This document shows positions 1-26,527 of a stretch of 64,000 nt of DNA, in pieces. Both the position numbers and the translations under genes were made by a program. Position 1 is the first letter of the stretch. Each line of letters begins with the position of its first letter. This DNA comes from Acidobacteriota bacterium (lineage in GTDB: Bacteria; Acidobacteriota; Terriglobia; Terriglobales; Acidobacteriaceae). The notes below the pieces were generated by a model that was not told the DNA's origin, did not search any database, and saw only the letters and a program-made list of their open reading frames with translations. The DNA lies in assembly GCA_013289765.1 (NCBI GenBank), contig JABCZI010000002.1, positions 62,001 to 126,000 of the forward strand, given 5' to 3'.

Positions 1-729
1 TTGCGGATGGGCCGCAAGCGCCGCGCCCGCCGTTTCTCCATAGCCCGGGACAATATTTACGACACCTTCCGGGAAACCTGCCTCCATGATCAGTTCGCCC
101 AAACGAAGCGCCGAAAGCGGCGTTTGCTCCGCCGGTTTCAACACCACGGTGCAGCCCGAAGCCAGCGCCGGACCCAGCTTCCACGCAGCCATCAATAACG
201 GAAAGTTCCAGGGAATAATTTGGCCCGCAACGCCGACCGGCTCCCGCAGCGTGTAGGCAAGATATTTCGCTCCGGGCGTGTATGGGACCGAGATTGGAAT
301 CGTGTTGCCTTCGAGCTTGGTAGTCCAGCCCGCCATATAACGGAACAAGTCGACCGCCAAAGGAACATCGGCGGCGCGTGCAACCGTCAGAGGCTTGCCG
401 TTATCAAGGCTTTCTAAATATGCGAATTCCTCAGTATGCACTTCCAGTAAATCGGCCAGCTTCCAAATCAAGCGTCCGCGTTCGGATGAAGTCAACCGCC
501 GCCAGGGGCCGTGGTCGAAAGCTTTGCGGGCGGCCTTCACCGCCTGCTCGATATCTTCGCGATCGCCCTCCGCCACCTGCGCGAGAACTTCACCAGTAGC
601 AGGATTGTAGGTGGGAAATGTTTTTCCGGAAATAGAATTTACCCACTTGCCGTTGATTAACATCTTGCGCGGCTTTTCAATGAACTCCGCGACCTGCGGA
701 TGAATTTGCGGTGACACTGCGATGCCCAT
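1..729 (-). CDS. Aldehyde dehydrogenase, N-terminal part (runs off left edge)
   Basis: An open frame of 243 codons enters from the left edge and reads to an ATG at 729, preceded by a strong AAGGAGG ribosome site. The protein matches the ALDH superfamily NAD-binding half: INGKWVNS near the start, a DNGKP motif, [16 protein letters not shown] with the conserved Asn, and a [14 protein letters not shown] segment. The catalytic Glu and Cys would lie beyond the edge. It resembles class 1/2 (retinal or betaine type) enzymes that oxidise aldehydes to acids with NAD(P). It lies 176 nt downstream of the ALDH16-type gene on the same strand, so it probably belongs to the deoC-ALDH transcript. A role in acetaldehyde disposal after deoxyribose-phosphate cleavage is inferred. 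Confidence 0.88.
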
Positions 730-904
730 ATAGCCTCCTTAAGTCAGTCACGAAATGGAGCGAGAACCTGCATGATGGGAAGACCAAAATCCCGAGCGGA
801 TAAGAATTACCGGAGTATGCTAGCTCCGAGTCCAAACAAATGCAATCGCAACCAGGTGAATCGGCGGTCAGATTTGAAGTTAGCGATTGAGTGGGACGGC
901 GACG

Positions 905-4519: not shown

Positions 4520-4546
4520 TTGAATCCTTTTGTCAGGGTTTACAAT
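4520..4546 (+). promoter_or_regulatory. Candidate sigma70 promoter for the cdd-deoA-nupC operon
   Basis: TTGAAT at 4520-4525 and TACAAT at 4541-4546, with a short 15-nt spacer. Transcription would start near 4553. That places an upstream TTG at 4530 outside the message and supports a cdd start at 4584 or 4611. The divergent deoC gene begins at 4378, so 4379-4583 is a shared control region. A minus-strand TACAAT lies at 4448-4443 as a possible deoC -10 box, but no good -35 was found for it. Confidence 0.35.
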
Positions 4547-4583
4547 TGCCCTCGCTTTCGCCTTCCGCTCAAGCCTTTTGCTT

Positions 4584-4994
4584 ATGCGCCAAAAGATTCC
4601 GCTCGCAAGTATGCAAGCCAAATTGTTGCGATCCGCCAAGAAAGTTATGGGGAACGCGTATGCGCCCTACTCGAAATTTCGCGTGGGAGCCGCGGTGCTT
4701 CTCTCGAATGGGAAAATTTTCACCGGTTGCAACGTGGAGAACGCTTCCTACGGGATGACGAATTGCGCCGAGCGCACCGCAATATTTTCGGCGGTCGCAC
4801 AGCTTGGGCCGAAAATCGAGGTCCGCGCCGTCTCGGTCGTCAACGATCACGGTGTCCCCTGTTCGCCCTGTGGCGCATGCCGTCAGGTAATTTACGAATT
4901 CGGCCCTGACGCAACCGTTTTCTTTCAAGGGGCGAAAGGTCCCAAACAGGCTCACATCACCGAACTGCTTCCGGAGGGATTCCGTCTCCAGTGA
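4584..4994 (+). CDS. cdd: Cytidine deaminase
   Basis: Zinc hydrolase that converts cytidine or deoxycytidine to uridine or deoxyuridine, feeding the phosphorylase encoded next. Small tetrameric type: AYAPYSKFRVGAA, CNVENASYG, Cys61-Ala-Glu63 (zinc ligand and catalytic Glu) and PCGAC with Cys96 and Cys99 as the other zinc ligands. The ATG at 4584 gives 136 residues; an in-frame ATG at 4611 gives 127, closer to the usual family length. An in-frame TTG at 4530 would add a hydrophobic stretch not found in the family and lies upstream of the candidate transcription start. Its stop overlaps the deoA GTG by four bases, implying translational coupling. Confidence 0.93.
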   Translation: MRQKIPLASMQAKLLRSAKKVMGNAYAPYSKFRVGAAVLLSNGKIFTGCNVENASYGMTNCAERTAIFSAVAQLGPKIEVRAVSVVNDHGVPCSPCGACRQVIYEFGPDATVFFQGAKGPKQAHITELLPEGFRLQ

Positions 4995-6346
4995 GTCCAT
5001 CTTCGGTTCCAGCGCATAATTTTCGAGCTGTTGACGTGATTCGCAAGAAGCGTGATGGCGATGAGCTGTCTCAGAACGAAATCGAATCTTTCATCAACGC
5101 GTACACGGACGACTCAATTCCCGACTACCAGGTCTCCGCATGGCTGATGGCGGTGGTATTGCGCGGCATGACGCGCGGTGAAACTGCCGCTTTAACGGAT
5201 GCGATGCTGCGCTCGGGTGAAGTTCTCGACCTGTCTTACCTTTCACCGAAAAAAGTCGATAAGCATTCAACTGGCGGCGTAGGCGATAAAACTTCGCTGG
5301 TGCTCGCGCCCCTCGCGGCGGCCGCGGGTGTGGCTGTTCCCATGATCAGCGGGCGCGGACTCGGACACACGGGCGGCACGCTCGACAAACTTGAAGCCAT
5401 TCCCGGTTTCAATGTGAATCTTCCAGTGGCGGACTTTCGCCGGGTTCTTGAAACGTGCGGCTGCGCCATGATTGGTCAGACGGCGGAAATCGCTCCGGCC
5501 GATCGCAAGCTCTACGCTTTGCGCGATGTGACGGGGACGGTGGAGAGTCCATATTTGATTTGCGCGTCAATTATGAGCAAGAAGCTTGCGGAAGGGATCG
5601 ATGCGCTTGTGCTCGATGTAAAAACCGGTTCAGGCGCGTTCATGAAGAATGAAAAGGACGCCGCTTTTCTTGCTGAACTCATGGTTGAGACCGGCACGCG
5701 GATGGGAAAGCAGGTCGTGGCGCTGATCACTGATATGGATCAGCCGCTGGGGAATATGATTGGCAACGCGCTGGAGGTTGTGGAAGTGGTGCAGGTTCTG
5801 CGCGGCGAAGGGCCGGAAGACTTGCGGCAACTGTGCATCGAGCTTGCGGGATGGATGCTGCACTTGGGTGGAGTTTCGGATACCGTAGCTGCGGGGAAGA
5901 AACAGAGTGAGAAGTTAATCGCTTCCGGCAAAGCGCTCGACAAGTTTCGACAGATGGTGGAGTTGCAGGGTGGAGATCCGCGGACAATCGACGATCTAAC
6001 GAAGCTGCCCCAGGCGCAAGCCACGATGACCACTGCGAGCGCGAGCGATGGTTATGTCGCGTCTGTGCAATGCGAGCAGATCGGCAGCGCGTGTGTGATT
6101 CTTGGCGGAGGCCGCGAGCGTAAGGAAGATTCCGTCGACCCTGCGGTGGGAATCGTGTTGCGCAAAAAAGTCGGCGACGCTGTTTCGAAGGGCGAGCCTC
6201 TGGCAACCATTCATTACAACGCCGAGACCCGAGCTAGTCGCGCTAAGCAACTGCTGGAAGAGAGTTATCGGATTGCGGATGCGCCGTTGCGCCAGACAAG
6301 GCCATTGATCCACCGTGTGATCGGAAATCCCGGAGAGAAAAACTGA
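4991..6346 (+). CDS. deoA: Thymidine / pyrimidine-nucleoside phosphorylase
   Basis: 451 residues, usual family length. It phosphorolyses thymidine, deoxyuridine or uridine to the free base and (deoxy)ribose 1-phosphate. Visible motifs: DVIRKKRDGDELS at the N-terminus, KHSTGGVGDKTSL and SGRGLGHTGGTLDKLE in the phosphate and base binding region, DVKTGSGAFMK, and a C-terminal domain with ILGGGRERKEDSVDPAVGI. The start is a GTG at 4991 overlapping the cdd stop. The transporter gene starts directly after its stop. Whether it is thymidine-specific (DeoA) or broad pyrimidine (Pdp) cannot be decided from sequence alone. Confidence 0.95.
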   Translation: MSPSSVPAHNFRAVDVIRKKRDGDELSQNEIESFINAYTDDSIPDYQVSAWLMAVVLRGMTRGETAALTDAMLRSGEVLDLSYLSPKKVDKHSTGGVGDKTSLVLAPLAAAAGVAVPMISGRGLGHTGGTLDKLEAIPGFNVNLPVADFRRVLETCGCAMIGQTAEIAPADRKLYALRDVTGTVESPYLICASIMSKKLAEGIDALVLDVKTGSGAFMKNEKDAAFLAELMVETGTRMGKQVVALITDMDQPLGNMIGNALEVVEVVQVLRGEGPEDLRQLCIELAGWMLHLGGVSDTVAAGKKQSEKLIASGKALDKFRQMVELQGGDPRTIDDLTKLPQAQATMTTASASDGYVASVQCEQIGSACVILGGGRERKEDSVDPAVGIVLRKKVGDAVSKGEPLATIHYNAETRASRAKQLLEESYRIADAPLRQTRPLIHRVIGNPGEKN

Positions 6347-7573
6347 ATGGGACGCTTCACTGGAATTCTCGGCTTGTTGACTATGCTGGTGGCGGCCTAT
6401 GCGTTTTCCACCAATCGCCGCGCCATTCGCCTTAAAACTGTGTTGTGGGGTCTGGGCTTGCAATTTGTATTTGCCATATTTGTATTGCGTATTGACGCGG
6501 GCAGGGCCGCTTTTCAAAAGGCTGGGGACGCGGTCACGAAACTTTTGAGTTACGCGCATGCGGGCTCGCACTTCGTGTTTGGCGACCTTGCGAATCCCGG
6601 ATCGCAATTGGGATATTTTGCGTTTGGCGTTCTGCCCACGGTCATTTTTATCGCGGCTTTCTTCGCGGTGCTCTATTACTTCGGCGTAATGCAGATCATC
6701 ATCCGGATCTTCGCCTGGATCATGACGCGGGTGATGGGAGCGAGCGGCGCGGAATCGCTGAACGTTGCGGCCAGCATATTCATGGGGCAGACCGAAGCGC
6801 CGCTCACGATTCGGCCATTTCTGGCTGACCTTACGCGATCGGAATTGATGACCGTGATGACCAGCGGCATGGCGCATGTTTCCGGTGGAATCATGGCCGC
6901 ATATATTTTCTTTGGCATTGACCCCAGACACTTGCTGAGTGCGGTCATCATGACTGCGCCAGGAACTTTGCTGATGGCGAAAATGCTGGTGCCGGAGACT
7001 GAACAACCAAAGACCGCTGGAAGAGTGATCATGAGCGAGGAGGAAGAGAAAGCAGAAAAGGAAGAAAATCTTTTGGGCGCGATTGCCCGCGGAACCACCG
7101 ACGGGCTGCATCTGGCGCTGAACATCGCAGCGATGCTGATCTCCTTTCTGGCGTTGATCGCACTTACCGATGGTATTCTTGGCGGCATTCATCATTGGAT
7201 CAGCTGGTTTCCTGAATCTTTGGAAAAGATTTTCGGCGTGCTGTTCGCACCGGTGGCATGGGTAATCGGAGTGCCGTGGCATGACTGCGGGTTCATCGGA
7301 ACCTTGCTGGGCACTCGAATGGCACTGAATGAGCTCGTCGCGTTTTCCATGCTTGGTCCGGCCAAAGGATCGCTCGACCCTCGATCGTTCACCATTGCAA
7401 CGTTTGCACTTTGCGGGTTCGCGAACCTGAGTTCTATTGGTATTCAGATCGGTGGAATTGGAGCGCTCGCTCCGAATAAGAAAAGCGAACTGGCGCGGCT
7501 GGGAATTCGCGCGATGCTGGCCGGAACCATGGCAAATTTGATGTCGGCATCCATTGCCGGAATGCTGCTTTAA
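6347..7573 (+). CDS. nupC: Concentrative nucleoside transporter (CNT family)
   Basis: 408-residue inner-membrane protein with many hydrophobic segments. It carries the CNT signatures GQTEAPLTIRPFL in the middle and a C-terminal segment reading CGFANLSSIGIQIGG. These proteins import nucleosides with H+ or Na+. The ATG touches the deoA stop (TGAATG), so the two genes are coupled. A Glu/Lys-rich cytoplasmic loop (about residues 225-243) is unusual in being highly charged. In this operon it would import nucleosides for the phosphorylase and deaminase. NupC is used as the family name; base preference is unknown. Confidence 0.92.
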   Translation: MGRFTGILGLLTMLVAAYAFSTNRRAIRLKTVLWGLGLQFVFAIFVLRIDAGRAAFQKAGDAVTKLLSYAHAGSHFVFGDLANPGSQLGYFAFGVLPTVIFIAAFFAVLYYFGVMQIIIRIFAWIMTRVMGASGAESLNVAASIFMGQTEAPLTIRPFLADLTRSELMTVMTSGMAHVSGGIMAAYIFFGIDPRHLLSAVIMTAPGTLLMAKMLVPETEQPKTAGRVIMSEEEEKAEKEENLLGAIARGTTDGLHLALNIAAMLISFLALIALTDGILGGIHHWISWFPESLEKIFGVLFAPVAWVIGVPWHDCGFIGTLLGTRMALNELVAFSMLGPAKGSLDPRSFTIATFALCGFANLSSIGIQIGGIGALAPNKKSELARLGIRAMLAGTMANLMSASIAGMLL

Positions 7574-7603: not shown

Positions 7604-8656
7604 GTGAAACATCGTGGGGTCTTGTTTTTTATTTTTTCATTCTTCATTCTTGTTTGCGCGACGACGGGGTTCGCCCAAACTGCGCCTAAGCGTGTGATTA
7701 TCGATACCGACCCTGGCACGGACGATGCCATGGCGATCATTTTGGCTTTGAATTCTCCTGAACTCAAAGTGGAAGCGCTTACTGTGGTGCCCGGAAATGT
7801 AGACGGGCGGCAGGGCCTGGAGAATGCGCTGAGGATTGTTTCGCTGGCCGGACGCTGCGACGTCATCGTAGCGGGCGGAGCGCAGCATCCGCTGAACCAG
7901 AAACTGATCACGGCGCAGTTTTGGCATGGGAAGAATGGCATCGCCGGCGTCGAGTTGCCGCCGACGAAATGCAAGGCGGACTCGCGCTTCGGGCCGGATC
8001 TCATCATCGAGATGGTTCACAAGTATCCTCGTGAAATCACGCTGATTCCGGTTGGCCCGCTGACTAATATTGCGCTGGCAGTTTCGAAGGATCCTTCGAT
8101 CGTAACTCTCGTCAAAGATATTGTGATCATGGGCGGCTCGATCACGGGCGGGAATGTCAACGGAGCGGCGGAGGCTAACATTTATGGCGATCCAGAAGCG
8201 GCGCAGATTGTGTTCAATGCGGGATGGATGGTCACGATGGTTGGGTCGGACGTGGGCGAACGGACGTTGATCACGAGAAAATATCTGGCCGAGTTGCAGT
8301 CGTCACATGGACTGGAGAGCGATTTTATCGCCAAGATTGCCGATTTTTATTTGACGCGCAGCGAAAAGAGCGGATACAGCGGGGCGGCGATGTACGATCC
8401 GCTGGCCGTGGGGATTGTTATTGACGCCACGCTGGTTACGCTGAAAGAAATGCACGTCGACGTCGAAACCAAAGGCGAGTTCACCCGTGGAGAAACTGTG
8501 GCGAACCGCATGGGATCGAACGAAAACAATGTTCTGCACGGCGATCACTACGAAATCGACGGCGTGGTTCCGCTGACGCCGAACGCGAGAGTTTGTGTCG
8601 CTTCCGATGCGGGCCGTTTTTTGCAGTTGTTCGTGAGCCGGGTTAAAGGGAAATAG
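7604..8656 (+). CDS. Secreted (Sec) inosine-uridine type nucleoside hydrolase
   Basis: 350 residues; signal peptide about 1-25 (hydrophobic FFIFSFFILVCATTGFAQ). It hydrolyses the N-glycosidic bond of nucleosides to base and ribose, here in the periplasm. The calcium loop is intact: IIDTDPGTDDA with Asp34, Asp36, Asp40 and Asp41. Also present are VGPLTNIAL, the sugar-binding EANIYGDPEAA and the C-terminal ligand Asp in YDPLA, where Tyr replaces the His common in the family. The start is a GTG at 7604 after AGAAGGGA. It follows nupC by 30 nt and is probably the fourth gene of the cdd operon. It is one of five nucleoside hydrolases in the window. Confidence 0.94.
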   Translation: MKHRGVLFFIFSFFILVCATTGFAQTAPKRVIIDTDPGTDDAMAIILALNSPELKVEALTVVPGNVDGRQGLENALRIVSLAGRCDVIVAGGAQHPLNQKLITAQFWHGKNGIAGVELPPTKCKADSRFGPDLIIEMVHKYPREITLIPVGPLTNIALAVSKDPSIVTLVKDIVIMGGSITGGNVNGAAEANIYGDPEAAQIVFNAGWMVTMVGSDVGERTLITRKYLAELQSSHGLESDFIAKIADFYLTRSEKSGYSGAAMYDPLAVGIVIDATLVTLKEMHVDVETKGEFTRGETVANRMGSNENNVLHGDHYEIDGVVPLTPNARVCVASDAGRFLQLFVSRVKGK

Positions 8657-8661
8657 TTCGC

Positions 8662-9639
8662 CTAGCCATTCGCCCGCGCCACCAGGAATATCGCCAGCCC
8701 GTAAAAGACAAACATCAGGGCAAGATAGGCTTTCGCGCGAGGTCCGGAGTTGGCAAATTCCTTCCATGCAAGAACGCCCCATAGGGCTGCGACCATGGGA
8801 GCGGATTGCCCGATGGCGTAGGAAATTGCAACGCCCGTAAAGCTCGCGGCCACCAGGTTGAAGACGGTGCCGATGCCCCAGATGAATCCACCGAGAATTC
8901 CCAGCAGGTGTCCCGAGAGAGCTCCGCGGAAAAATCCACTGAAGCTTACCGGTTCTCCGACCAGCGGATGCTTCATGAAATAAATATTCCAGATGAAACA
9001 CGAGAGCAATGCGCCCAAGGTCAAAAAGACCGCGGCACTATACGGACCGAGAGTATTACCGCGAGTCATGGCGTGCGTCATGAACGGAGCCCACAAGCCC
9101 ATCAGAATTCCTGACACCACGCAGGTGATCAAACTTTTTTTTGAGACGGAACGTCCCGCGGCAGCGAGACTGCCGTAGGCTTTGCCATCCAAGAGCACCG
9201 CAACGAACGCGCATGCCACGCCGAGCGCCAGCAGTAGAGCGTTCCCTCTCGGCTGCAGCGCATAGCTCAAGACAGTTCCCACTACGAGCGCGATTCCAAT
9301 GGAAATTGGGAAAGCGACGGCAAGTCCAGCCATGTCAATCGCCGCGACGAGCAATAGATTGGCAAGATTGAACAGCGCTCCTCCGATGAGGGCGTTGATG
9401 ATGTTGGAAGTGTCAGCGGAGTGAACGTTGTTGAGAAAGCTGTGGGAGTCGTTTCCTGTGCTCCCCATCGTGAACGCGAGCACCAAGGAGATTAGAAAGA
9501 TGCCGACCGCGTAATCCCAGTAAAAAAGTTCGAAGCGGTAGTTCTTGACGCCCTTGTAAGTGTTAGCCCAGGAACCCCAGCAAACTGCGCTTGTGATCAT
9601 CATTAACAGCGCGATACTCAGACTCGACGGTGTGAACAA
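8662..9639 (-). CDS. Ureide-permease-like (DMT/GRP superfamily) transporter
   Basis: 325 residues with about ten hydrophobic helices. The pattern WGSW..TYKG, FYWDYAVG....LAFTMGS, GGALFNLANLLL, and GLAVAFPISIGIALVVGTVLSYAL resembles plant ureide permeases (allantoin and uracil carriers) and bacterial sugar/drug-metabolite permeases. It sits between two nucleoside hydrolase genes on the opposite strand and ends 6 nt from the stop of the first. A role in importing free bases, ureides or ribose released by the hydrolases is inferred; the substrate cannot be read from the sequence. The start at 9639 is the first codon of the hydrophobic core region. Confidence 0.72.
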   Translation of the reverse strand: MFTPSSLSIALLMMITSAVCWGSWANTYKGVKNYRFELFYWDYAVGIFLISLVLAFTMGSTGNDSHSFLNNVHSADTSNIINALIGGALFNLANLLLVAAIDMAGLAVAFPISIGIALVVGTVLSYALQPRGNALLLALGVACAFVAVLLDGKAYGSLAAAGRSVSKKSLITCVVSGILMGLWAPFMTHAMTRGNTLGPYSAAVFLTLGALLSCFIWNIYFMKHPLVGEPVSFSGFFRGALSGHLLGILGGFIWGIGTVFNLVAASFTGVAISYAIGQSAPMVAALWGVLAWKEFANSGPRAKAYLALMFVFYGLAIFLVARANG

Positions 9640-9771: not shown

Positions 9772-10737
9772 GTGCCGCGCACTTTTCTGATTGATACCGA
9801 TACCGCGTCTGATGACGCGGTTGCCTTGATCATGGCGCTGCGCGCTCCGGACGTGCGAGTGGCTGCGATCACGACCGTAGCTGGGAACGTCGACGTACAG
9901 CAGGCCACGCGAAACGCGCTGTATACCGCCGAGCTGTGCGGAGCGAATGTAGCGGTTTACTCGGGAGCTGAAAAACCGCTGCTGCGTGCTTATACGAACG
10001 CGACCTGGTTCCATGGCCGAGACGGGCTCGGCGATCACAATTATCCGGCACCCCATCGATCTCACGAAACCTTGCACGCAGTCGATGCGATCATCGAAAC
10101 GGTTGAGGCGAATCGCGGGCTGGTTGTCGTCACGCTGGGACCTCTCACGAATTTGGCGCTTGCATTGGCTAAAAAACCTACAATCGCTGCAAAGGTTGGA
10201 CGCTGCGTGGTTATGGGCGGCGCACCTTGCTGTGAAGGAAACGTTACGCCGGCCGCCGAATACAACATTTGGGTTGACCCGGAAGCTGCCCGCGTCGTGA
10301 TGCTCAGCGGTCTACCCGTGGAGTTGATCGGTTGGCAACTCTCCCGTGGAGACGCCGTTCTGAATGGAGAGGATATCGGGCAGATTCAGGAATTCCAAAC
10401 TCCCCTCGGTCGCTTCGCCGTCGAATGCAATAGTCACGCCCGGCAAGCGTACAAAGTGCAAACGGGAGAGGATGGGATCTCGCTTCCCGATCCGATTGCC
10501 ATGTGTGTCGCTCTCGATCCGTCGGTAGGAACTGAATGGAGTGAGGATTATGTAGACGTGGAGACGCAGAGCGAACTGACGCGAGGCATGACAGTGGTCG
10601 ATCGTCTGAATGTTGCGGAGGATCAGCGAAATCGCGTGGTCTGGGAACCGGTGTTGCGCACCGGCCGCAAAAGCAAAGTATGTTGGAAAATCGACATACA
10701 GCGCTGGAAGGAAACTCTGTTTTCAGCGCTTCGATAG
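9772..10737 (+). CDS. Cytosolic nucleoside hydrolase (IunH/Rih family)
   Basis: 321 residues, the classic length, with no signal peptide. The N-terminal motif FLIDTDTASDDA puts Asp8, Asp10, Asp14 and Asp15 at exactly the positions of the Crithidia and E. coli enzymes. TLGPLTNLAL, AAEYNIWVDPEAA and PDPIA follow; Pro replaces the His of HDPLA. It cleaves imported ribonucleosides to base and ribose, which ribokinase at 15794 can phosphorylate. The start is a GTG at 9772. It is transcribed alone, convergent with the dihydropyrimidinase gene 12 nt away. Purine or pyrimidine preference is not resolved. Confidence 0.93.
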   Translation: MPRTFLIDTDTASDDAVALIMALRAPDVRVAAITTVAGNVDVQQATRNALYTAELCGANVAVYSGAEKPLLRAYTNATWFHGRDGLGDHNYPAPHRSHETLHAVDAIIETVEANRGLVVVTLGPLTNLALALAKKPTIAAKVGRCVVMGGAPCCEGNVTPAAEYNIWVDPEAARVVMLSGLPVELIGWQLSRGDAVLNGEDIGQIQEFQTPLGRFAVECNSHARQAYKVQTGEDGISLPDPIAMCVALDPSVGTEWSEDYVDVETQSELTRGMTVVDRLNVAEDQRNRVVWEPVLRTGRKSKVCWKIDIQRWKETLFSALR

Positions 10738-10748: not shown

Positions 10749-12146
10749 CTAGCCGCTGATTTGCGAGTAGGTTGACCGGCGTAAAAACTCCCCCTGTCCC
10801 GCGCGCCCCAAAAACTTCTCTCCTTCCACCACAACCCGGCCTTTCGAAAGCACGACATCAGGCATGCCTGTGACTTGAATGCCTTCAAACATCGAGTAAT
10901 CCACCCGCATATGGTGCGTCTTGGCGCTGATGGTGTGCTTGCGCTTGGGATCGAAGATCACGAGGTCGGCGTCGCTACCAACGGCAATAGTTCCCTTTCG
11001 CGGATACAGTCCAAAAAGTTTTGCCGGAGTGGTTGAAACCAGCTCAACAAATCGATTCACGTCAAATCGCCCGGCGGCAACACCGCCGGAATAAATGAGA
11101 CTCATGCGATGTTCAACGCCGGGGCCACCATTTGGAATTTTAGTAAAGTCATCACGGCCGAGTTCTTTCTGCTCTTTAAAGCAGAACGGGCAATGGTCAG
11201 TGGAGACAACTTGGAGATGATCGCGTTTCAGGCCGTTCCAAAGCTTTTCCTGATGCCACTTTTCGCGAAGCGGAGGAGTGAATACATATTTCGCTCCTTC
11301 GAAGTCAGGCACGTCGTAGTTTTCAATTGAGAGATACAAATATTGCGGGCAAGTTTCAGCGTAAACGGGGAGTCCGCGATCACGAGCTTCGCGAACTTTT
11401 TCGAGAGCCTCATTGCAACTGAGATGCACAATGTAGATCGGGGCCCCGGCCATCTCCGCCAACGCGATCGCGCGAGACACGGCTTCGGCTTCCGCTGTGG
11501 TGGGGCGAGTGAGCGCGTGATACTTGGGCGCCTTTTTCCCCTCCGCCAGCGCCTGCTGAACGATCACATCGATCGCGCTGCCGTTCTCCGCGTGCATACA
11601 GATGAGGCCACCATTTTTCGAAGTGGTTTGCAGAGCTCGGAAGATGCTGGCGTCATCCAGCATGAAAACGCCGGGATACGCCATGAAAAGTTTGAAGCTG
11701 GTTACACCTTCGCCTACAAGCGCATTCATCTGCTGTAGCTGGCCGTTGCCGATGTCGGTGACGATGCAGTGAAATGCATAATCGCAAACCGCTTTCTTTG
11801 AAGCTTTCTCCATCCAAGTGTCGAACGCCTGGCGCAACGGCTGGCCTTTGTATTGAATGGCGAAGTCGATCAGCGTGGTCGTTCCCCCGAACGCAGCCGC
11901 ACGCGTACCGGTTTCAAAATCATCAGCGCTTGTTGTCCCACCGAAGGGCATGTCGAGATGCGTGTGAACATCAATACCGCCAGGTAAAACATATTTTCCC
12001 GCAGCATCAAGAAACTTCGTGGCGTTCTCGCGCGGGAGATCTTTGCCGATAGCCGCGACTTTGCCATCTGTAATTGCAACGTCCGCCAGGTACTTATCGG
12101 TCGCAGTCACCACGGATCCGTTACCGATAATCGTGTCGAAGCCCAT
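10749..12146 (-). CDS. hydA: Dihydropyrimidinase / hydantoinase
   Basis: 465 residues, full length for the cyclic amidohydrolase family. It opens dihydrouracil or dihydrothymine to N-carbamoyl-beta-amino acids. Binuclear metal site: HTHLDMPFGGT (first His pair), the carboxylated Lys in SFKLFMAYPG, MHAENG, IVHLSC and TDHCPF. The ring-opened product is the substrate of the amidase encoded at 14746. The ATG at 12146 is divergent from the LLM oxidoreductase gene. A D-hydantoinase with other cyclic imides as substrates is possible, but the pyrimidine context favours dihydropyrimidinase. Confidence 0.93.
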   Translation of the reverse strand: MGFDTIIGNGSVVTATDKYLADVAITDGKVAAIGKDLPRENATKFLDAAGKYVLPGGIDVHTHLDMPFGGTTSADDFETGTRAAAFGGTTTLIDFAIQYKGQPLRQAFDTWMEKASKKAVCDYAFHCIVTDIGNGQLQQMNALVGEGVTSFKLFMAYPGVFMLDDASIFRALQTTSKNGGLICMHAENGSAIDVIVQQALAEGKKAPKYHALTRPTTAEAEAVSRAIALAEMAGAPIYIVHLSCNEALEKVREARDRGLPVYAETCPQYLYLSIENYDVPDFEGAKYVFTPPLREKWHQEKLWNGLKRDHLQVVSTDHCPFCFKEQKELGRDDFTKIPNGGPGVEHRMSLIYSGGVAAGRFDVNRFVELVSTTPAKLFGLYPRKGTIAVGSDADLVIFDPKRKHTISAKTHHMRVDYSMFEGIQVTGMPDVVLSKGRVVVEGEKFLGRAGQGEFLRRSTYSQISG

Positions 12147-14745: not shown

Positions 14746-15639
14746 TCAGTCCGCGGCTGCGGCTTCTCCCGTCTGTGCGGTAAGAGGGCCGTAACTTTCC
14801 GGACGCCGATCGCGGAAAAACTGCCAAACTTTGCGAACTTCCGCAATCATCTCGAGATCGAGATCGGCTATAACAACTTCATCTTTATCCCGGCTGGCCT
14901 GCGCGATAATTTTCCCGCGCGGATTGCAGAAATAGCTCTTTCCATAGAACTCACCAATGTTCCAAGGTTTTTCGATGCCGATACGATTCACGGCGCCCAC
15001 AAAGTAACCGTTCGCAACGGCATGGGCCGGCTGCTCCAGTTCCCACAAATATTCCGAAAGTCCAGCCACTGTCGCCGAAGGATTGAAAACGATCTCCGCG
15101 CCGTTCAATCCTAGAATGCGCGCGCCCTCCGGAAAATGACGGTCATAGCAAATGTAAACTCCCACCCGCGCATACTTTGTTTCAAAAACCGGATATCCGC
15201 CATCGCCCGGGGTAAAGTAAAACTTCTCCCAAAATCCGGGATGGCAGTGTGGAATGTGGTGCTTGCGGTATTTCCCAAGATAGCGTCCATCGGCATCGAT
15301 CACTGCCGCGCTGTTGAAATACACGCCGGGCATTTGCTCTTCGTAGACCGGAACCACGATTACCATGCGATGTTTGGCAGCGAGCTTCTGCATCATGCGG
15401 ACGGTTGGGCCATCTGGCACGCGCTCCGTCAGTTCATACCAGCGCGCATTCTGCTCCGCACAAAAATATGGACCGTAGAAAAGCTCCTGTAAACATAGAA
15501 TCTGAGTCTTCTTTCGCGCCGCCTGCTCAATCAACTTCAAATGCTTGTCGATCATTGCTTTTCTGATCTGGGCAAGCGGACGTTCCGTACTAACAGCATT
15601 ACTGGCTTGAATCAGGGCGCAGCGCACAATGCGAGGCAT
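14746..15639 (-). CDS. Nitrilase-superfamily amidase, beta-ureidopropionase / N-carbamoylputrescine amidase type
   Basis: 297 residues. The catalytic triad is Glu52 (QELFYGPYFC), Lys126 (YRKHHIP) and Cys164 (ICYDRHFPE). The QELFYGPYFC, NSAAVIDADG..GKYRKHHIPH and GFWEKFYFTPG segments resemble eukaryotic beta-ureidopropionase and bacterial carbamoylputrescine amidases. It hydrolyses N-carbamoyl-beta-alanine or -aminoisobutyrate to the amino acid, CO2 and ammonia. It is first in an operon with the NCS1 permease and lies near dihydropyrimidinase, which favours the pyrimidine role over polyamine metabolism. No agmatine deiminase is seen nearby. Confidence 0.9.
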   Translation of the reverse strand: MPRIVRCALIQASNAVSTERPLAQIRKAMIDKHLKLIEQAARKKTQILCLQELFYGPYFCAEQNARWYELTERVPDGPTVRMMQKLAAKHRMVIVVPVYEEQMPGVYFNSAAVIDADGRYLGKYRKHHIPHCHPGFWEKFYFTPGDGGYPVFETKYARVGVYICYDRHFPEGARILGLNGAEIVFNPSATVAGLSEYLWELEQPAHAVANGYFVGAVNRIGIEKPWNIGEFYGKSYFCNPRGKIIAQASRDKDEVVIADLDLEMIAEVRKVWQFFRDRRPESYGPLTAQTGEAAAAD

Positions 15640-15793: not shown

Positions 15794-16723
15794 ATGGCCA
15801 AGCGCCCTCGCATCGCGGTAGTCGGAAGCGCGAACATCGATCTCACAACTTTCACCGATCAGTTTCCAAAACCCGGGGAAACAATCTTCGGCCAGAAATT
15901 CGATCTGGGGTTCGGCGGCAAAGGCGCGAATCAGGCCGTCGCTGCCCGTCTTTGTGGCGCAGATGTCTTCATGGTGGCGCGAGTGGGAAATGACCTGTTC
16001 GGCCCGGCCACAATCGACAATTTCAAGAAACTCGGTATCGATACAACCCACGTGAAGCAGGTGGAGGGATTATCCAGCGGGGTCGCGCCCATCTTCGTCG
16101 AGCCTAATGGCCAGAACCGAATTCTCGTGGTGAAGGGCGCTAATGACGCGCTGAAGGCCGCAGATGTAGACGCCGCTGCTGAAACGTTGAAAGCCGCGGA
16201 TTGCATTGTCCTCCAGTTTGAGATTCCGCTGGAAACCGTTTACTACACAGTCGCGTTTGCAAGGAAGCACGGGATTCGTTGTATTGTGAACCCGGCTCCG
16301 GCCCAAGCGATTGAAATGCGCGCTCTGACTGATCTCGATTACTTCGTTCCGAATGAGAGCGAGGCGCAAGCCGTTGGTGGCATGCCCGTACGCAATGTTG
16401 ACGAGGCGAAGAAGTGTGCAGAGATGCTGATGGCAGGCGGCATTCGGCGGGTGATCATCACCCTGGGAGCCAATGGTTCGCTTCTCGTTGCGCCCGGCGT
16501 CAGCGAGCATGTACCCGCTTTCGCCGTCAAGAGCGTCGACAGCAGCGGCGCTGGTGACGCATTCATTGGGAGCTTCGCGGTGTTCCTCGCGGAAGGAATA
16601 CCGGAGTTAGAGGCCGTGCGTCGCGCTAATCTGTACGCCGGCCTCTCGACTAGCGGGGTAGGAACGCAGAAGTCTTTTTATGATCGCGCGCGTTTCGATG
16701 CCGAGTGGGCTATCAAAGGGTAG
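15794..16723 (+). CDS. rbsK: Ribokinase
   Basis: 309 residues, PfkB sugar kinase family. It phosphorylates ribose to ribose 5-phosphate with ATP. Visible: the N-terminal substrate motif VVGSANIDLTTF, the GGKGANQAVAAARLCG-like signature (here GFGGKGANQAVAARL), NESEA, and the catalytic SSGAGDAFIGSF near residue 253. It is transcribed alone between the amidase gene and the TonB receptor. It would salvage ribose released by the nucleoside hydrolases. The window has no ribose ABC transporter, so ribose either arises in the cytosol or enters by another carrier. Confidence 0.94.
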   Translation: MAKRPRIAVVGSANIDLTTFTDQFPKPGETIFGQKFDLGFGGKGANQAVAARLCGADVFMVARVGNDLFGPATIDNFKKLGIDTTHVKQVEGLSSGVAPIFVEPNGQNRILVVKGANDALKAADVDAAAETLKAADCIVLQFEIPLETVYYTVAFARKHGIRCIVNPAPAQAIEMRALTDLDYFVPNESEAQAVGGMPVRNVDEAKKCAEMLMAGGIRRVIITLGANGSLLVAPGVSEHVPAFAVKSVDSSGAGDAFIGSFAVFLAEGIPELEAVRRANLYAGLSTSGVGTQKSFYDRARFDAEWAIKG

Positions 16724-16872: not shown

Positions 16873-16964
16873 GCCGTTCTACGGTCAAAGACCTCCCAGA
16901 TTTCAATGCGGAACGAAGTTTCCGCTCGTCATTCGGTGTGGGCCGCCGAAAAAAGGGGAATTTA

Positions 16965-19900
16965 ATGCTAAAAAGGGCGCTGCTCGTCGTCGTTTTCTGT
17001 TCCTTCGTGTTCTCGCTCTGTCCGTTCCTGGTCGCTCAGGCAACTAGCAGCTTTTCAGGAACGGTCTCCGACAAGGCTGGTGCGGTGGTTCCGGGCGCGA
17101 GTGTGCGGGCAACCTCGCGAGAAACGGGCGCGACGCGCGAAACCAAGACCGACGATTCTGGCCACTACCTGATTCCGCTGCTGCCCGTTTCTTACTACAC
17201 ACTGCGGGTTGAGTCGCAGGGCTTCCAGACGACGGAACAGAAAGATATTCGGCTGCAAGTGGACGAACATCGTGAAATCGATTTTGCCCTCAATCCTGCC
17301 TCGGTTTCGAGCTCGGTCGAAGTTAGCGCGACTGAAGTAGCGGTGGAGACTTCGAATCCTTCCCTGGGACAAGTAATTACCTCCGAGCAGGTCGCCGATT
17401 TACCACTGAATGGACGCAATTTTGTGCAACTCGCTACGCTGACGCCTGGCACGACATCCTCAACGAGCCCCGTCAGCTTCTTCACCAGCGCTGCCAGCAG
17501 CGAGGCTGCCACGCGGGGATCGTTCTCGCTTTCATCGGGCGGTTCGCGCGAACAGGAAACCGACTGGCTGCTCGATGGCAACGACAACAATCAATTGGAT
17601 GAGGGCGGGATTGCAATTTTCTCGTCCATCGACGACATACAAGAATTCAAAGTTCTAACCTACAACTACTCGGCCGAATACGGCGAGCGCTCCGGGCCCA
17701 CAGTATTGGTGACCACGAAATCGGGAGCGAACCAGTTTCACGGTTCGTTGTTTGAGTTTTTCCGCAACACTGCTCTCGATGCAAAAACTTTCGATTTTGG
17801 GGTCTCGTCTCCCAAGCAGCAATTCAAGCTGAACCAGTTCGGCGGTTCGCTGGGCGGGCCGATTCAAAAAGACAAGACGTTCTTTTTTCTCGACTACCAG
17901 GCCAAAATGCAGCGCAAAGGAGTAACTTTCACTGGGTTTGTTCCGACTGCTGGCATGACCACGCCGGACGCAAGTGGCAACTACGATTTCACTAACGTCC
18001 CGACGGGCGTGCAACTCACGAACCCGTACGCGACGGGAGCGTCCAAGAATTTCCAGTGTTCCAGCGGCACAACGCCTGAGCCGGTCAATCCAGATGGAAG
18101 CCAGCCGGCTGGCATCCCTTGCAATATCATTCCAGCGGCCCTGATCAATCCCATCGGGGCGAAGGTGATTCAACTTTATCCCACGCCTAATGCGACAGCG
18201 ACAGGCTTCAACTACGTCAATGCACCGGTGAGAAAGCTCAACGAAGGAACTTGGGACGTCCGCCTCGATCACAATTTCTCCAGCAAGGATTCCGCGTTTG
18301 CGCGTTTTAGCTACGATCAGGCGACGAACTTCGTTCCCGGCGGCTCGCCGACGTGGTCGGAACAGAACGCCTTCGGCAGCAACCAGCACATCGAAAACCA
18401 TGGGCGCAATTTAGCGCTCTCGGAGACGCACGTCTTTTCCGCGAACATGGTGAATCAGCTCAATGTTGGCTATAACCGGATTTTCAATCACATCCTTTCC
18501 TTTGGCACCGGCACGTGCGAGGCCGCGTTGCTCGGCATTCCCGGCGCAGATCTGGCCAGCAAGTGCAATGGCATAACCGGCTATCCGGCGAGCCTGAACC
18601 AGTCGCCGCAGGAATGCGAAAGTTGCGGCCTGACTTCGTTCGATATGACCGCCTATTTTTCTTTGGGTGATCGCGGATATGCGCCGTACCAGGGCGGAAC
18701 TAACGTCTACTCCGTTTCCGATACGATGGACGTGATTCATGGAAAACACAACATCCGCTTCGGAGCCGTGTTTCGCGCCGAGGAGATGAATGTAAGAAAC
18801 AACGCATTTCAGGACGGGTTTATCGTCAATGTCGGCTCTGCGACCGGCGACAACATGGGCGACCTGCTTTTGGGCAGCCTGGGAGTTTTTGCCGCCCACG
18901 ACCAAACATTTCTGGGGGCTACCACCGGCCGACGCTGGAAACTGTTTCGCCCCTTTGTCCAAGACGACTGGCGCATAACCAACAACTTAACCCTCAACCT
19001 TGGATTCGCCTGGGCTTTGGCGACGCCGGTAACTGAAGAGCAGAACCGGCAGGCGAACTTCGATGTTGCGACTCTCAAGTGGTATGTCCCGAAAGGCAGT
19101 CCCGCATTAGCAGGCTGCACGGTCTGCGTCGCTACCGACGGGCGGGTAGGAATTCAATTCGATAAGAAGGCTCTCGAACCGCGCATTGGATTCGCATGGA
19201 AGCCAATGGGCAGTGACAAAACCGCGGTGCGTGGCGGCTACGGCATCATCCATGATTCCGCGTGGAACCAGGGCGGACAAGGATTGTGGCAGAACCCGCC
19301 GTACTACGCGGAAGTGGATCCCTTCCCCACGGGCGTTTGCACTCCATTCGGCAGCACTGGCTGCGGCCTCTCTAACGGTTTCCTTCTCCCGGCTGGAACT
19401 CCTTCTACCACGCCTGTAACGGGCGGTGCCGTTTACAGTTCTCCAGTAAGCCCACAAGCATATACGGGCACGATTCAATCCGAGAATCGCAACTTCAAAC
19501 AGGGAATCATTCAGCAATTCAATCTGAATGTTGAGCGCCAACTGCCAGGGAACGTAGTACTGACGGTGGGCTACGGTGGCTCACGCAGCGCCCATATTCT
19601 GGTAAGCCAACTGAACGAAAATATCTCATCTCCCAGTGCATGTGGGGTGGTTCCCGGCTACACAGTGGGCTGCGGCTTCCCATCGTTCCCCTACGCGTTC
19701 CCCTTTCAGTCCGTCGACACCAACAACAGCATCGGCACCGCTCGTTATGATTCTCTTCAGGTAAAAGCTGAAACCAAGAGCACGCGGCACGGGCTCTATG
19801 CCTTGATCGGTTACACGTATTCGCGCAATTTCGATTCTGGTCTGACCGATGGCCTGGGCACAAATCCCGGCGCGCTCTATTACCCGCTGCCCGGAACTGC

Positions 19901-20552
19901 GAAGCTGGATTGGGGTTTGTCGCAATTGAATCTCAACAACAGCTTTACCGCGAGCGTGCTCTACAATCTGCCGTTTGGAAAGGGCAAGCGTTACGGCAGC
20001 GACTGGAGCGGAGCTACCAACGCCCTCCTGGGAAATTGGCAACTCACGGTGATCGAGAGAGCAACCTCGGGCTTCCCGCTGTTTGTGGTCGATAGCGGCG
20101 ACGGGTCAGGAGTATTCTTCTCGTATAATGGCAACACCCTTCAGCGCCCCAATGAAGTGGGCGACCCGAATAAGGCGGGACCGGTGGCCGGCAATCCGAC
20201 TTGTAGTGCGCCGTCCAGTGTGCACACACTTCAGAATTGGTTCAATCCCTGCGCCTTCATGAAAGCGCCGACTGGCGAACTTGGCACTGCCCCGCGCGCC
20301 CCCGTATATGGCCCGCGTTTTGTAAACACTGATTTCTCGGTGATCAAGGATTTTCCCTTGGCCTTCCGCGAAGCCATGAACCTGCAATTCCGGGCAGAAT
20401 TCTTCAACCTGTTCAACCATCCGCAGTTCTTCCTTCAAGGATTCGCTGGCACGGGAGAGCAGGACATCAACACTCCTTCCAGTTTCGGCGTTGTGAATAA
20501 CACCGTAAACAACGCGCGATTAGTGCAGTTTGCATTGAGGCTAAATTTCTAA
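16965..20552 (+). CDS. TonB-dependent receptor, Oar-like, with carboxypeptidase-regulatory domain
   Basis: 1195 residues. Order: signal peptide (about 1-30), carboxypeptidase regulatory-like Ig fold (FSGTVSDKAGAVVPGASV... to about 110), plug (LPLNGRNFVQLATLTPG, ALDAKTF), then a long beta-barrel ending in ...ALRLNF with the C-terminal Phe expected for BAM assembly. Family members import large or scarce nutrients through the outer membrane with TonB energy. The ATG at 16965 follows AAAAGGGGA; a GTG at 16938 is also in frame. Its position between ribokinase and a secreted hydrolase suggests it imports nucleosides, oligonucleotides or a related ligand, but Oar-like receptors are numerous in this phylum and the ligand cannot be read. 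Confidence 0.92.
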   Translation: MLKRALLVVVFCSFVFSLCPFLVAQATSSFSGTVSDKAGAVVPGASVRATSRETGATRETKTDDSGHYLIPLLPVSYYTLRVESQGFQTTEQKDIRLQVDEHREIDFALNPASVSSSVEVSATEVAVETSNPSLGQVITSEQVADLPLNGRNFVQLATLTPGTTSSTSPVSFFTSAASSEAATRGSFSLSSGGSREQETDWLLDGNDNNQLDEGGIAIFSSIDDIQEFKVLTYNYSAEYGERSGPTVLVTTKSGANQFHGSLFEFFRNTALDAKTFDFGVSSPKQQFKLNQFGGSLGGPIQKDKTFFFLDYQAKMQRKGVTFTGFVPTAGMTTPDASGNYDFTNVPTGVQLTNPYATGASKNFQCSSGTTPEPVNPDGSQPAGIPCNIIPAALINPIGAKVIQLYPTPNATATGFNYVNAPVRKLNEGTWDVRLDHNFSSKDSAFARFSYDQATNFVPGGSPTWSEQNAFGSNQHIENHGRNLALSETHVFSANMVNQLNVGYNRIFNHILSFGTGTCEAALLGIPGADLASKCNGITGYPASLNQSPQECESCGLTSFDMTAYFSLGDRGYAPYQGGTNVYSVSDTMDVIHGKHNIRFGAVFRAEEMNVRNNAFQDGFIVNVGSATGDNMGDLLLGSLGVFAAHDQTFLGATTGRRWKLFRPFVQDDWRITNNLTLNLGFAWALATPVTEEQNRQANFDVATLKWYVPKGSPALAGCTVCVATDGRVGIQFDKKALEPRIGFAWKPMGSDKTAVRGGYGIIHDSAWNQGGQGLWQNPPYYAEVDPFPTGVCTPFGSTGCGLSNGFLLPAGTPSTTPVTGGAVYSSPVSPQAYTGTIQSENRNFKQGIIQQFNLNVERQLPGNVVLTVGYGGSRSAHILVSQLNENISSPSACGVVPGYTVGCGFPSFPYAFPFQSVDTNNSIGTARYDSLQVKAETKSTRHGLYALIGYTYSRNFDSGLTDGLGTNPGALYYPLPGTAKLDWGLSQLNLNNSFTASVLYNLPFGKGKRYGSDWSGATNALLGNWQLTVIERATSGFPLFVVDSGDGSGVFFSYNGNTLQRPNEVGDPNKAGPVAGNPTCSAPSSVHTLQNWFNPCAFMKAPTGELGTAPRAPVYGPRFVNTDFSVIKDFPLAFREAMNLQFRAEFFNLFNHPQFFLQGFAGTGEQDINTPSSFGVVNNTVNNARLVQFALRLNF

Positions 20553-23518: not shown

Positions 23519-24055
23519 TTAGCGTCCGCGCCGCGCAGGTGTCGCCTGACGGCATAGCAAGTCAACGTAAGCTTCCGCGACTATCTGTTCTTTTTCAATT
23601 CCAAATTCGGCAAGCAGTGCCGCGGCTATTTTTCCCCCTTCCAGGTCGGTCTGACCAGGCTCAAGCAGAACTTCGAGTTCCAGAAATTCGCCGAGCCCCT
23701 CAACCTGGTCGATGTGTATACGAGTCTGCCCCACAAGACAAAGCGTCCGCAATTTTCTGACTACACCGGTTCTGCCCAGAGTTGCTGTCAGTATGTCGAG
23801 CAGAATCGTGGGATCTGCCGTGCGAGCAATTAAGTAGGACGAGCGCCGCGCCTCAGCAAGGTCAGCTCTTTCATATCGGATCAACTCTCCCTGATCCGGT
23901 GCAAGTATTCGCAACTTCAGCCGTGCTCCATCACATTTAAAGAAAACATCTTCCTGAGAAAAAATCTTTGGCGCCGCGCGGCTGAGTCTAGCGGCCACTC
24001 TCTCCGCCGCAGCTCGGTTCCTCAAAACAGCTTTGATCTCGATGTTCGATGCCAT
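23519..24055 (-). CDS. CYTH-domain protein (class IV adenylate cyclase / triphosphatase-like)
   Basis: 178 residues from the second of two adjacent ATGs (24058 and 24055). The N-terminal NIEIKA matches the ExExK signature of CYTH proteins (first Glu replaced by Asn). KLRIL, ELIRYERAD, VRKLRTLC, RIHIDQVEGLGEFLELEVLLEPG follow in the family order and supply the basic and acidic tunnel residues. CYTH proteins act on triphosphorylated substrates such as ATP, thiamine triphosphate or tripolyphosphate. Which reaction applies is unknown. It is divergent from the Tat-exported nucleoside hydrolase. Confidence 0.8.
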   Translation of the reverse strand: MASNIEIKAVLRNRAAAERVAARLSRAAPKIFSQEDVFFKCDGARLKLRILAPDQGELIRYERADLAEARRSSYLIARTADPTILLDILTATLGRTGVVRKLRTLCLVGQTRIHIDQVEGLGEFLELEVLLEPGQTDLEGGKIAAALLAEFGIEKEQIVAEAYVDLLCRQATPARRGR

Positions 24056-24189
24056 CATATGCCCGACAAGATGATCTATCTGCCGTCCGATTGTTAATAG
24101 ACTTGAAAGTTCTACGCTCCATCCGTTACGTTCATCACGCAACTTTATCGCATTTCGCGCCTATGTCAGTGCGCAAGGACTATACATAA

Positions 24190-25371: not shown

Positions 25372-25447
25372 ACTGGCCTGTGCATCACGAACTTCCGATC
25401 TTCCAAGACTTCCAAGACTTTTTCCAAGGCTAAGGATAACGATAACG

Positions 25448-26527
25448 ATGAAATTAGTCCGGGTTCGATTCTTCGCAGCAGCGCTATTACTGATCAGCCT
25501 AACTTCCTGGGGACAAGAGAAACGAAAGATCATCATCGATCAGGACGCAGCTGGCCCCGCCGGTACTGATCAACAGTCCATGCTCCTGCTCATTCAGTCG
25601 CCGCAAACGGATGTTCTCGGTATCACTGTGGTGACGGGCGATCAATGGCTGCACGAAGAAGTGGCGCACACTTTGCGCATGCTCGAACTCATTGGACGAA
25701 CCGACATCCCGGTCATGCTGGGCGCTGAGTATCCGCTGGTAAGACGCCAGCAGGAAACTGAGCAATGGGAGCAGCAATACGGCTCCGTGGCATGGCTGGG
25801 CGCATGGACGCCTATGTTCTTTCATCCCTCTGATCAATTGGGAGAAATGCCGGAAGGTAAACCTGCCACCAAGCCTTCCGATGAGGACGCAGCGCACTTT
25901 CTACTGCGTATGGTTCACAAATTCCCGCATCAGATCACGATTTACGCCGGCGGGCCGATGACGAACCTCGCCCTCGCCATCTCCATCGATCCGCAATTTG
26001 CGGATCTGGCAAAAGAACTCGTGTTCATGGGCCTCAGCCTCAACCCGCGTACTGACGATCCTGAATTTGCGAATGCTCCGACCCACGAATTCAATATCTG
26101 GTTCGACCCCGAAGCCGCGCACATTGTGCTTCAGGCTCCCTGGAAGAAAATAGTTTGCACGCCGGTCGACATTTCAGTGAAGACCAGACTTACCTCTGAC
26201 CTGGTCAACCGCATCAAGCAGGCGCACACTCCGTTGGCTCAGTACATCGGCAAGTATGCGCGCCTCCGAGGAAACTATAACTATCTGTGGGACGAATTGT
26301 CAGCGGCGGCATGGCTCGACCCGACCATTATCACGAAAAAACAAACGCTTTTTATGGATGTGGACCTGGACCGCGGCGCCGGCTACGGCAATACGTTGAG
26401 TTGGACCGAGCATGATAAGCCGAAGATCGACGAGCAGCCAGTTGAAGTGCAGGATGATCTGGACCTGGATAAGTTTTACAAGATGTTTGTGGAATTGCTC
26501 ACCGCGCCCACTCCCCAAAAGAATTGA
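25448..26527 (+). CDS. Secreted divergent nucleoside hydrolase-like protein, paralogue
   Basis: 359 residues; signal peptide about 1-22 (FFAAALLLISLTSWGQ). It is closely similar along its length to the protein at 20640. The calcium loop reads IIDQDAAGPAGTDQQ: Asp31 and Asp33 remain, an insertion with GPAG follows and the canonical Asp-Asp pair is reduced to one Asp41. GGPMTNLALAISIDP, HEFNIWFDPEAA and LWDELSAAAWLDP are kept. The start is the ATG at 25448 after AAGGATAACGATAACG. It is 76 nt downstream of the Tat hydrolase, possibly one transcript. Activity is uncertain. Confidence 0.83.
   Translation: MKLVRVRFFAAALLLISLTSWGQEKRKIIIDQDAAGPAGTDQQSMLLLIQSPQTDVLGITVVTGDQWLHEEVAHTLRMLELIGRTDIPVMLGAEYPLVRRQQETEQWEQQYGSVAWLGAWTPMFFHPSDQLGEMPEGKPATKPSDEDAAHFLLRMVHKFPHQITIYAGGPMTNLALAISIDPQFADLAKELVFMGLSLNPRTDDPEFANAPTHEFNIWFDPEAAHIVLQAPWKKIVCTPVDISVKTRLTSDLVNRIKQAHTPLAQYIGKYARLRGNYNYLWDELSAAAWLDPTIITKKQTLFMDVDLDRGAGYGNTLSWTEHDKPKIDEQPVEVQDDLDLDKFYKMFVELLTAPTPQKN

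Follow-up and report, generated by a model that had tools for sequence, protein, structure and literature searches.

A putative F420-dependent luciferase-family oxidoreductase probably replaces PreTA in a pyrimidine degradation operon of Acidobacteriota

We analysed a 64,000-nucleotide stretch from an Acidobacteriota soil bacterium (assembly GCA_013289765.1, contig JABCZI010000002.1, positions 62,001 to 126,000; the window, G000:C2:62001-126000 among our handles for genomes, contigs and loci), which is part of a 4.80-Mb genome of 97.6% completeness. A first-pass annotation had described its first 26 kb as a complete route for scavenging nucleosides and had overlooked a gene of the NCBIfam 'hypothetical equivalog' TIGR03842. 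We consider it likely that the window carries a Pyd operon whose PreTA/PydA is replaced by an F420H2-dependent TIGR03842 uracil/thymine reductase, the reaction being predicted from sequence and modelling. This reading is based on gene content, linkage to F420 genes, exclusion of PreA, a shared operon slot, repeated swaps and the fold. The main value of our analysis lies in the prediction, drawn from comparative genomics and the fold, that TIGR03842 is probably an F420H2-dependent dihydropyrimidine dehydrogenase. The genes in question are:

10749..12146, minus strand: dihydropyrimidinase (DHPase, PydB); TIGR02033, 645.6 bits, cut-off 393.25
12282..13292, plus strand: TIGR03842 luciferase-like oxidoreductase (LLM); TIGR03842, 413 bits, cut-off 295.45
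13298..14734, minus strand: NCS1 permease; TIGR00800, 395 bits, cut-off 353
14746..15639, minus strand: CN hydrolase, probably a beta-ureidopropionase (PydC) by context; PF00795, 224.5 bits

DHPase needs dihydrouracil, and the genes listed by the first-pass annotation include no source of a dihydropyrimidine, which leaves the claimed route incomplete. In the window's own genome the PreA profile (NF006183) has no match at E<=1e-60, and a query with E. coli PreA picks up an open frame of 330 aa that lacks the C-terminal part, besides a second, very weak match (E 0.004). Similarly, the RutA profile (TIGR03612) has no match in the genome at E<=0.001, with one candidate scored. Since neither PreA nor RutA was found in the genome, no known enzyme feeds the DHPase. 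The missing step probably comes from the TIGR03842 gene, which stands between the DHPase and the NCS1 permease and for which a longer, TTG-started frame opens at 12219. The possibility that this protein is itself a PreA/PydA, with a DHODH fold and an Fe-S cluster, is ruled out by its luciferase-like domain and fold.

The sole Pfam domain of the protein is Bac_luciferase. Its fold is closest to the F420-dependent Mer and places it in the Mer/Adf/FGD branch, and the nearest folds belong to F420 hydride-transfer enzymes, not to FMN monooxygenases. An alignment of the family reveals an invariant stretch (W221, N228, H229, D232, Y256, Y258, H261); at the position of Mer Glu6, 20 aligned TIGR03842 rows have Thr and the plasmid rows (see below) Val or Cys. 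TIGR03842 thus differs from Mer, Adf and FGD by invariant residues of its own, and its substrate is presumably not a pterin, an alcohol or a sugar phosphate. In the window's genome, cofG-cofD-cofC-cofE-cofH-npdG are consecutive and all score over the curated cut-offs. The organism should therefore make F420 and reduce it via NADPH.

The same luciferase-like fold, together with a role in a pyrimidine pathway, is shared by RutA, which opens the uracil ring with FMN and O2. Nevertheless, it appears highly unlikely to us that TIGR03842 works like RutA, as a monooxygenase that opens the ring by means of reduced flavin and O2 in an oxidative, Rut-type route. Besides the lack of a RutA match in the genome, RutA is not among the 25 families listed, of 26, for the TIGR03842 protein. 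Moreover, the Rut product needs no DHPase, yet TIGR03842 travels with DHPase, replaces PreA and tracks the F420 genes, and the nearest folds named above are those of F420 enzymes.

An F420-dependent reductase in a Pyd operon also fits the wider occurrence of the gene. Among 80 related TIGR03842 loci in GTDB genomes, DHPase is present in 66, NCS1 in 63 and the CN hydrolase in 66 within the available stretch at >=40% identity, and 33 of the 41 loci flanked by >=6 kb on each side contain all three together; gene order and strand vary. PreA or PreT had no match in the 80 loci (tblastn, E<=1e-8). We therefore conclude that the conserved unit consists of DHPase, TIGR03842, NCS1 and CN hydrolase, i.e. 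a Pyd operon in which the first enzyme is unusual. In the window's class, TIGR03842 lies <=6 kb from DHPase in 25 of the 30 genomes with both genes (on a different contig in the other five), and PreA does so in 40 of 50. The six best class-level PreA loci all read PreT-PreA-DHPase, with a CN hydrolase at the edge of one.

The two enzymes exclude each other across the window's phylum (197 genomes, completeness >=90%) and class (200 genomes; some are common to both samples), counting TIGR03842 over its cut-off only and PreA at E<=1e-60. In the phylum sample, TIGR03842 occurs in 17 of 197 genomes, all with DHPase, 16 with the F420 ligase and none with PreA; the ligase is found in 15 of the 180 genomes without TIGR03842. 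PreA occurs in 42 genomes (32 over its cut-off), 40 of them with DHPase. The 72 DHPase genomes thus divide into 17 with TIGR03842 only, 40 with PreA only, 15 with neither and none with both. In the class sample, all 32 TIGR03842 genomes carry the F420 ligase and 30 carry DHPase, whereas the 52 PreA genomes (51 over the cut-off) include 50 with DHPase and two with the ligase. Here, 82 DHPase genomes divide into 30 with TIGR03842 only, 50 with PreA only, two with neither and again none with both. Pooling the samples, 45 distinct TIGR03842 genomes and 81 distinct PreA genomes do not overlap. This pattern also holds within a single genus (g134), where 14 genomes with TIGR03842 are all F420-positive and four with PreA are not; four further genomes of this genus have the F420 ligase, neither enzyme and no DHPase.

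Functional equivalence predicts that the two enzymes were exchanged repeatedly beside one DHPase lineage. We built a maximum-likelihood DHPase tree from 80 proteins, of which 29 come with TIGR03842, 50 with PreA and one with neither. On it the TIGR03842/PreA label has to change 12 times, and the well-supported branches force nine changes for the TIGR03842 label and ten for the PreA label. The rows of the tree were hand-picked, 60 from the class and 20 from the phylum list, and frames were chosen by similarity to the window protein. These changes, as well as the exclusion of PreA (0 shared, 45 vs 81), fit an exchange for PreA itself. They argue against a later or side function of TIGR03842, such as the reduction of malonate semialdehyde, with another enzyme making the dihydropyrimidine. 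An aldehyde dehydrogenase-like gene (30-41% identity) does lie near some TIGR03842 loci, and some Pyd clusters include the malonic semialdehyde reductase PydE, as far as the available text of PMC7332683 describes them. However, an unknown uracil reductase would need to follow TIGR03842 everywhere, and we judge a side function improbable.

If TIGR03842 is the F420H2-dependent reductase, the pathway would proceed as follows. The NCS1 permease would import the base, probably uracil or thymine. NpdG, whose gene is present, would reduce F420 with NADPH; on the TIGR03842 enzyme, F420H2 would then hand its hydride straight to C6 of uracil or thymine, forming the dihydropyrimidine. DHPase would open this to N-carbamoyl-beta-alanine, from which the CN hydrolase would release beta-alanine, CO2 and ammonia. 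In the window's clade, an additional nucleoside kit would supply this core: exported hydrolases would split nucleosides into base and ribose, the ribose being taken by ribokinase, and CNT, Cdd, DeoA, DeoC and the ALDH16-type enzyme would convert deoxynucleosides to acetate. In this scheme we infer the substrate and direction of TIGR03842, the hydride transfer and the substrates of the CN hydrolase and the transporters.

TIGR03842-like matches were also obtained from 13 plasmid records, of which we examined four. The order cofG-cofH-cofD-cofC-cofE-npdG-TIGR03842, all in one direction, is common to two plasmids from Leisingera and one from Paracoccus. The gene that follows TIGR03842 in Leisingera (L103) has RutR as its best match (198 bits, under the cut-off of 368). 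A Streptomyces plasmid, unannotated, encodes a CN hydrolase, a class-III aminotransferase, DHPase and TIGR03842. It seems reasonably probable that TIGR03842, as a luciferase-like and F420H2-dependent enzyme, represents an independent second origin of dihydropyrimidine dehydrogenase and was exchanged for PreTA many times. Uracil and thymine breakdown would then be one of the principal reasons for the retention of the F420 pathway in many Acidobacteriota, in some Alphaproteobacteria and probably in actinomycetes. In Leisingera and Paracoccus, whose F420 operons end with this gene, it would perhaps be the principal one.

Several observations weigh against the replacement of PreTA by TIGR03842. 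Neither enzyme is present in 15 of the 72 phylum-sample DHPase genomes; their DHPase scores are 397-553 bits in 14, a range that three PreA genomes (G007, G123, G131) also enter, and 604 in one (G164). Two of the 32 class-sample TIGR03842 genomes have no DHPase, and one TIGR03842 genome (G116, 90% complete) has no F420 ligase. Conversely, 28 of the 168 class genomes that lack TIGR03842 carry the ligase, so F420 serves other purposes in the class. PreA and the ligase occur together in G267, G352 and G049 (PreA under its cut-off in the last), and the presence of F420 therefore does not compel the exchange. For 50 of the 80 loci the whole genome, of unstated completeness, was searched for PreA; one of these genomes (G391, the metagenome-assembled genome (MAG) of L038) has a match, which is a fragment on a small contig. 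The six phylum-level PreA loci (L091-L096, with flanks of ~1.5 kb) show PreT in two and DHPase in none, and no DHPase is annotated within ~8 kb of TIGR03842 in the Leisingera and Paracoccus plasmids. Fisher values reach down to 1e-22 and ignore kinship; the DHPase tree answers much of this problem, although it is a gene tree of 80 hand-picked genes. Furthermore, the authors who studied SSGG-03002/NpsU (see below) saw no activity in vitro, according to the available part of PMC10714638.

A last point of this kind is that sequence alone does not clearly make the CN hydrolase a beta-ureidopropionase. The first-pass annotation had called it an amidase, and the protein is indeed a CN hydrolase, to which beta-ureidopropionases and N-carbamoylputrescine amidases of solved structure are about equally near. 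Its nearest solved structures are 2vhh (CG3027-PA; 214.1 bits) and the beta-ureidopropionases 8pt4 and 6ftq (197.8 and 197.7 bits), and the N-carbamoylputrescine amidohydrolase 5h8i reaches 196.4 bits. Its best NCBIfam match, N-carbamoylputrescine amidase, stays at 256.6 bits under a cut-off of 410, and no equivalog scores over its cut-off. We favour PydC, which is probable from the context.

This ambiguity bears on whether the substrate of the core module is a cyclic ureide other than uracil or thymine, i.e. hydantoin, allantoin or a purine-derived heterocycle. The DHPase and NCS1 families include hydantoinase and allantoin members, the alphaproteobacterial loci have no adjacent DHPase, and the accessible text of PMC12507026 proposes a putative F420 luciferase-family yanthine reductase in Chloroflexota. 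Against this stand the slot shared with PreA, the nucleoside genes that surround the window copy, and the Streptomyces cluster with its aminotransferase and CN hydrolase. Overall, we find another ureide quite improbable and retain uracil and thymine as the predicted substrates.

The dihydropyrimidine dehydrogenases described so far belong to the DHODH family, contain FMN and Fe-S and use NADPH, NADH or ferredoxin, as presented in the part of PMC7332683 available to us. With the Pyd systems of that source, which employ PreTA/PydA or the ferredoxin-type PydAc, the window locus has in common the dihydropyrimidinase, a PydC-like hydrolase, a permease, the operon slot and presumably the reaction. 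Instead of a DHODH-family enzyme, however, it has a Bac_luciferase-domain protein tied to F420. The closest parallel of which PMC10714638, seen in excerpt, speaks is NpsU/SSGG-03002 from the napsamycin and mureidomycin systems, a putative F420/FMN oxidoreductase needed for the reduction of the uracil C5=C6 bond. It differs in that its substrate is an antibiotic nucleoside or precursor, and we liken it to TIGR03842 by its description. A putative F420 luciferase-family reductase is also part of a uric-acid cluster of Chloroflexota (PMC12507026, available sections). Among the matches listed in our search of open-licence PMC titles and abstracts, no paper describes uracil reduction by an F420-dependent enzyme of pyrimidine catabolism.

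A review of F420 from 2021 (PMC8498797, the portion at hand) reports no F420H2-dependent reductase tested in bacteria beyond Actinobacteria and counts the reason for F420 production in Proteobacteria and Chloroflexi among the unanswered questions. Since then, a structure search shows, the structure of an F420 glucose-6-phosphate dehydrogenase from Thermomicrobium has been released. Our finding gives bacterial F420 a concrete candidate enzyme, substrate and growth test. If true, it would add a second protein solution to a reaction so far described from the DHODH family in the literature covered, give a function to the 'hypothetical equivalog' and provide a clear job for a rare cofactor in many bacteria.

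The remaining genes of the 26-kb stretch, from which the nucleoside route had been proposed, are as follows (NH, nucleoside hydrolase):

1..729, minus strand: aldehyde dehydrogenase, first 243 aa; Pfam Aldedh; whole gene L007:15224-16729, 501 aa
905..3283, minus strand: ALDH16-type two-domain aldehyde dehydrogenase; two Aldedh stretches; nearest solved structure 6mvr, residues 2-790, 975.9 bits
3344..4378, minus strand: deoC, deoxyribose-phosphate aldolase; TIGR00126, 163.9 bits, cut-off 117.3
4530..4994, plus strand: cdd, cytidine deaminase; Pfam dCMP_cyt_deam_1, E 7e-22
4991..6346, plus strand: deoA/pdp, pyrimidine-nucleoside phosphorylase; TIGR02644, 566.6 bits, cut-off 409
6347..7573, plus strand: CNT nucleoside transporter (nupC family); TIGR00804, 452.7 bits, cut-off 442
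7604..8656, plus strand: NH1, exported; IU_nuc_hydro, 292 bits; DTDPGTDD loop; signal peptide by eye
8662..9639, minus strand: ureide-permease / sugar-transport-like carrier, possibly for ribose or base uptake; PF07168, E 2e-22; PF06800, E 5e-11
9772..10737, plus strand: NH2, cytosolic; IU_nuc_hydro, 298 bits; no signal peptide by eye
15794..16723, plus strand: ribokinase; TIGR02152, 330 bits, cut-off 299.65
16938..20552, plus strand: outer-membrane beta-barrel protein with CarboxypepD_reg; PF25183, 671 bits; PF13620
20568..21722, plus strand: NH3, exported, atypical metal loop by alignment; IU_nuc_hydro, 189.5 bits
21747..23408, minus strand: TPR protein with CarboxypepD_reg domain (Pfam); 59% relative in G074
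23519..24142, minus strand: CYTH-domain protein; PF01928, 59.6 bits
24190..25371, plus strand: NH4, exported, RihA-like; IU_nuc_hydro, 320.6 bits; Tat-like leader by eye; nearest structures 1yoe and 3g5i (RihA)
25448..26527, plus strand: NH5, exported, atypical metal loop by alignment; IU_nuc_hydro, 198 bits

The first-pass observation was largely right and is partly confirmed; its interpretation is partly supported. Profile matches bear out cdd, deoA, deoC, ribokinase and dihydropyrimidinase as well as the three carriers, CNT and NCS1 over their cut-offs, and five IU_nuc_hydro proteins correspond to the one cytosolic and four exported hydrolases proposed, with signal peptides judged by eye. 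Besides TIGR03842, the TPR and CYTH proteins had been missed. Both aldehyde dehydrogenases are Aldedh proteins, but that at 1-729 runs past the window edge, and that at 905-3283 is of the two-domain ALDH16 type: its two Aldedh stretches span ~790 aa as in 6mvr, which we take to be ALDH16. It may oxidise the acetaldehyde formed by DeoC. The start of cdd is probably an ATG near 4584 or 4611. The proposed outer-membrane TonB receptor does have a CarboxypepD_reg domain and an OMP_b-brl_4 barrel, and is a probable uptake barrel, but no plug is among the domains listed and the SusC/RagA profile scores 17.9 bits against a cut-off of 368.

The joint nucleoside and pyrimidine role gains support from gene content and from the same-genus, 100% complete genome G074, which keeps 16 genes in the order NH5-TPR-OMP-RbsK-CNH-NCS1-LLM-DHPase-UPS-NH1-CNT-deoA-cdd-deoC-ALDH16-ALDH; NH2, NH3, NH4 and the CYTH protein have no separate match in the 40 kb searched there. 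The large set is clade-restricted, however. Four or more of 11 salvage genes occur in 11 of the 80 loci, and of the 41 well-flanked loci six reach this number and 33 hold none or one. In G107 and G065, of the same family, DHPase and TIGR03842 alone were found in the 38-40 kb searched, with one gene between the two in G107. The Pyd core is therefore the more widespread part, to which the nucleoside kit was added at the level of the clade. These sparse loci, and the absence of salvage genes from the searched stretches of G107 and G065, would also suit a loose pile-up without joint regulation in which only the Pyd core is a unit. We think this possible but rather unlikely, as the order is kept in G074 and largely in the 11 loci, and it would be compatible with the predicted role of TIGR03842. 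Moreover, a whole-genome search found six nucleoside hydrolases, five of them in this stretch, and the clustering is therefore not due to chance. E. coli has the RihA/RihB/RihC and Deo-Cdd-NupC salvage sets; in the window, the same enzyme families include exported hydrolases and are joined to a Pyd core within a single stretch.

In the alignment, the DxDxxxDD metal loop is intact in NH1, NH2 and NH4, whereas NH3, NH5 and the sixth copy NH6 (L107:858-2042) have an altered version that is three residues longer. The latter three may be inactive or of other specificity. By eye, NH6 (G000:C9:221500-224500, L107), of the NH3/NH5 type, has a LacI-like regulator and another OMP-like gene as neighbours, as if an outer-membrane barrel and an atypical exported hydrolase formed a recurring pair.

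TIGR03842 relatives are numerous: at least 7993 of 8000 candidates match at E<=1e-40, and not all need share a function. A second luciferase-like open reading frame (ORF) was seen by eye in the window's genome (L106, G000:C1). In each of eight phylum-sample genomes of genus g67, family f45 (G079, G096, G104, G112, G120, G144, G152, G168), the TIGR03842 profile matches 10-11 times at E<=0.001, with a single match over the cut-off; these genomes thus hold many F420-type luciferase-like enzymes. The copy at L025:10001-11020 has one stop in the translated match. Copies of 65-74% identity occur in L038 (Eremiobacterota), L071 (Betaproteobacteria) and L089 (Chloroflexales), assigned by record title, which may be transfers or misbinned contigs; the L038 MAG is also the one with the lone PreA match. 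Near nine of the 80 TIGR03842 loci, a conserved ORF of ~440 aa resembles class-III aminotransferases by eye and is possibly a beta-alanine aminotransferase.

Regarding neighbouring genes, the CYTH protein sits within the run of nucleoside hydrolase genes. Directly after the locus, 26549-30508 encodes a 1319-aa protein with FG-GAP, ASPIC/UnbV, AhpC/TSA and TPR domains, followed at 31306-32046 by an ECF-type sigma factor (TIGR02937, 49.6 bits, cut-off 42.9) and then by proteins without a Pfam match at E<=0.001 (32104-32784, 32781-33692 and 35552-36784). At the other end, just outside the window past the second aldehyde dehydrogenase, lies a phosphoribosyltransferase-like gene (L007:14571-15143) that possibly serves base salvage.

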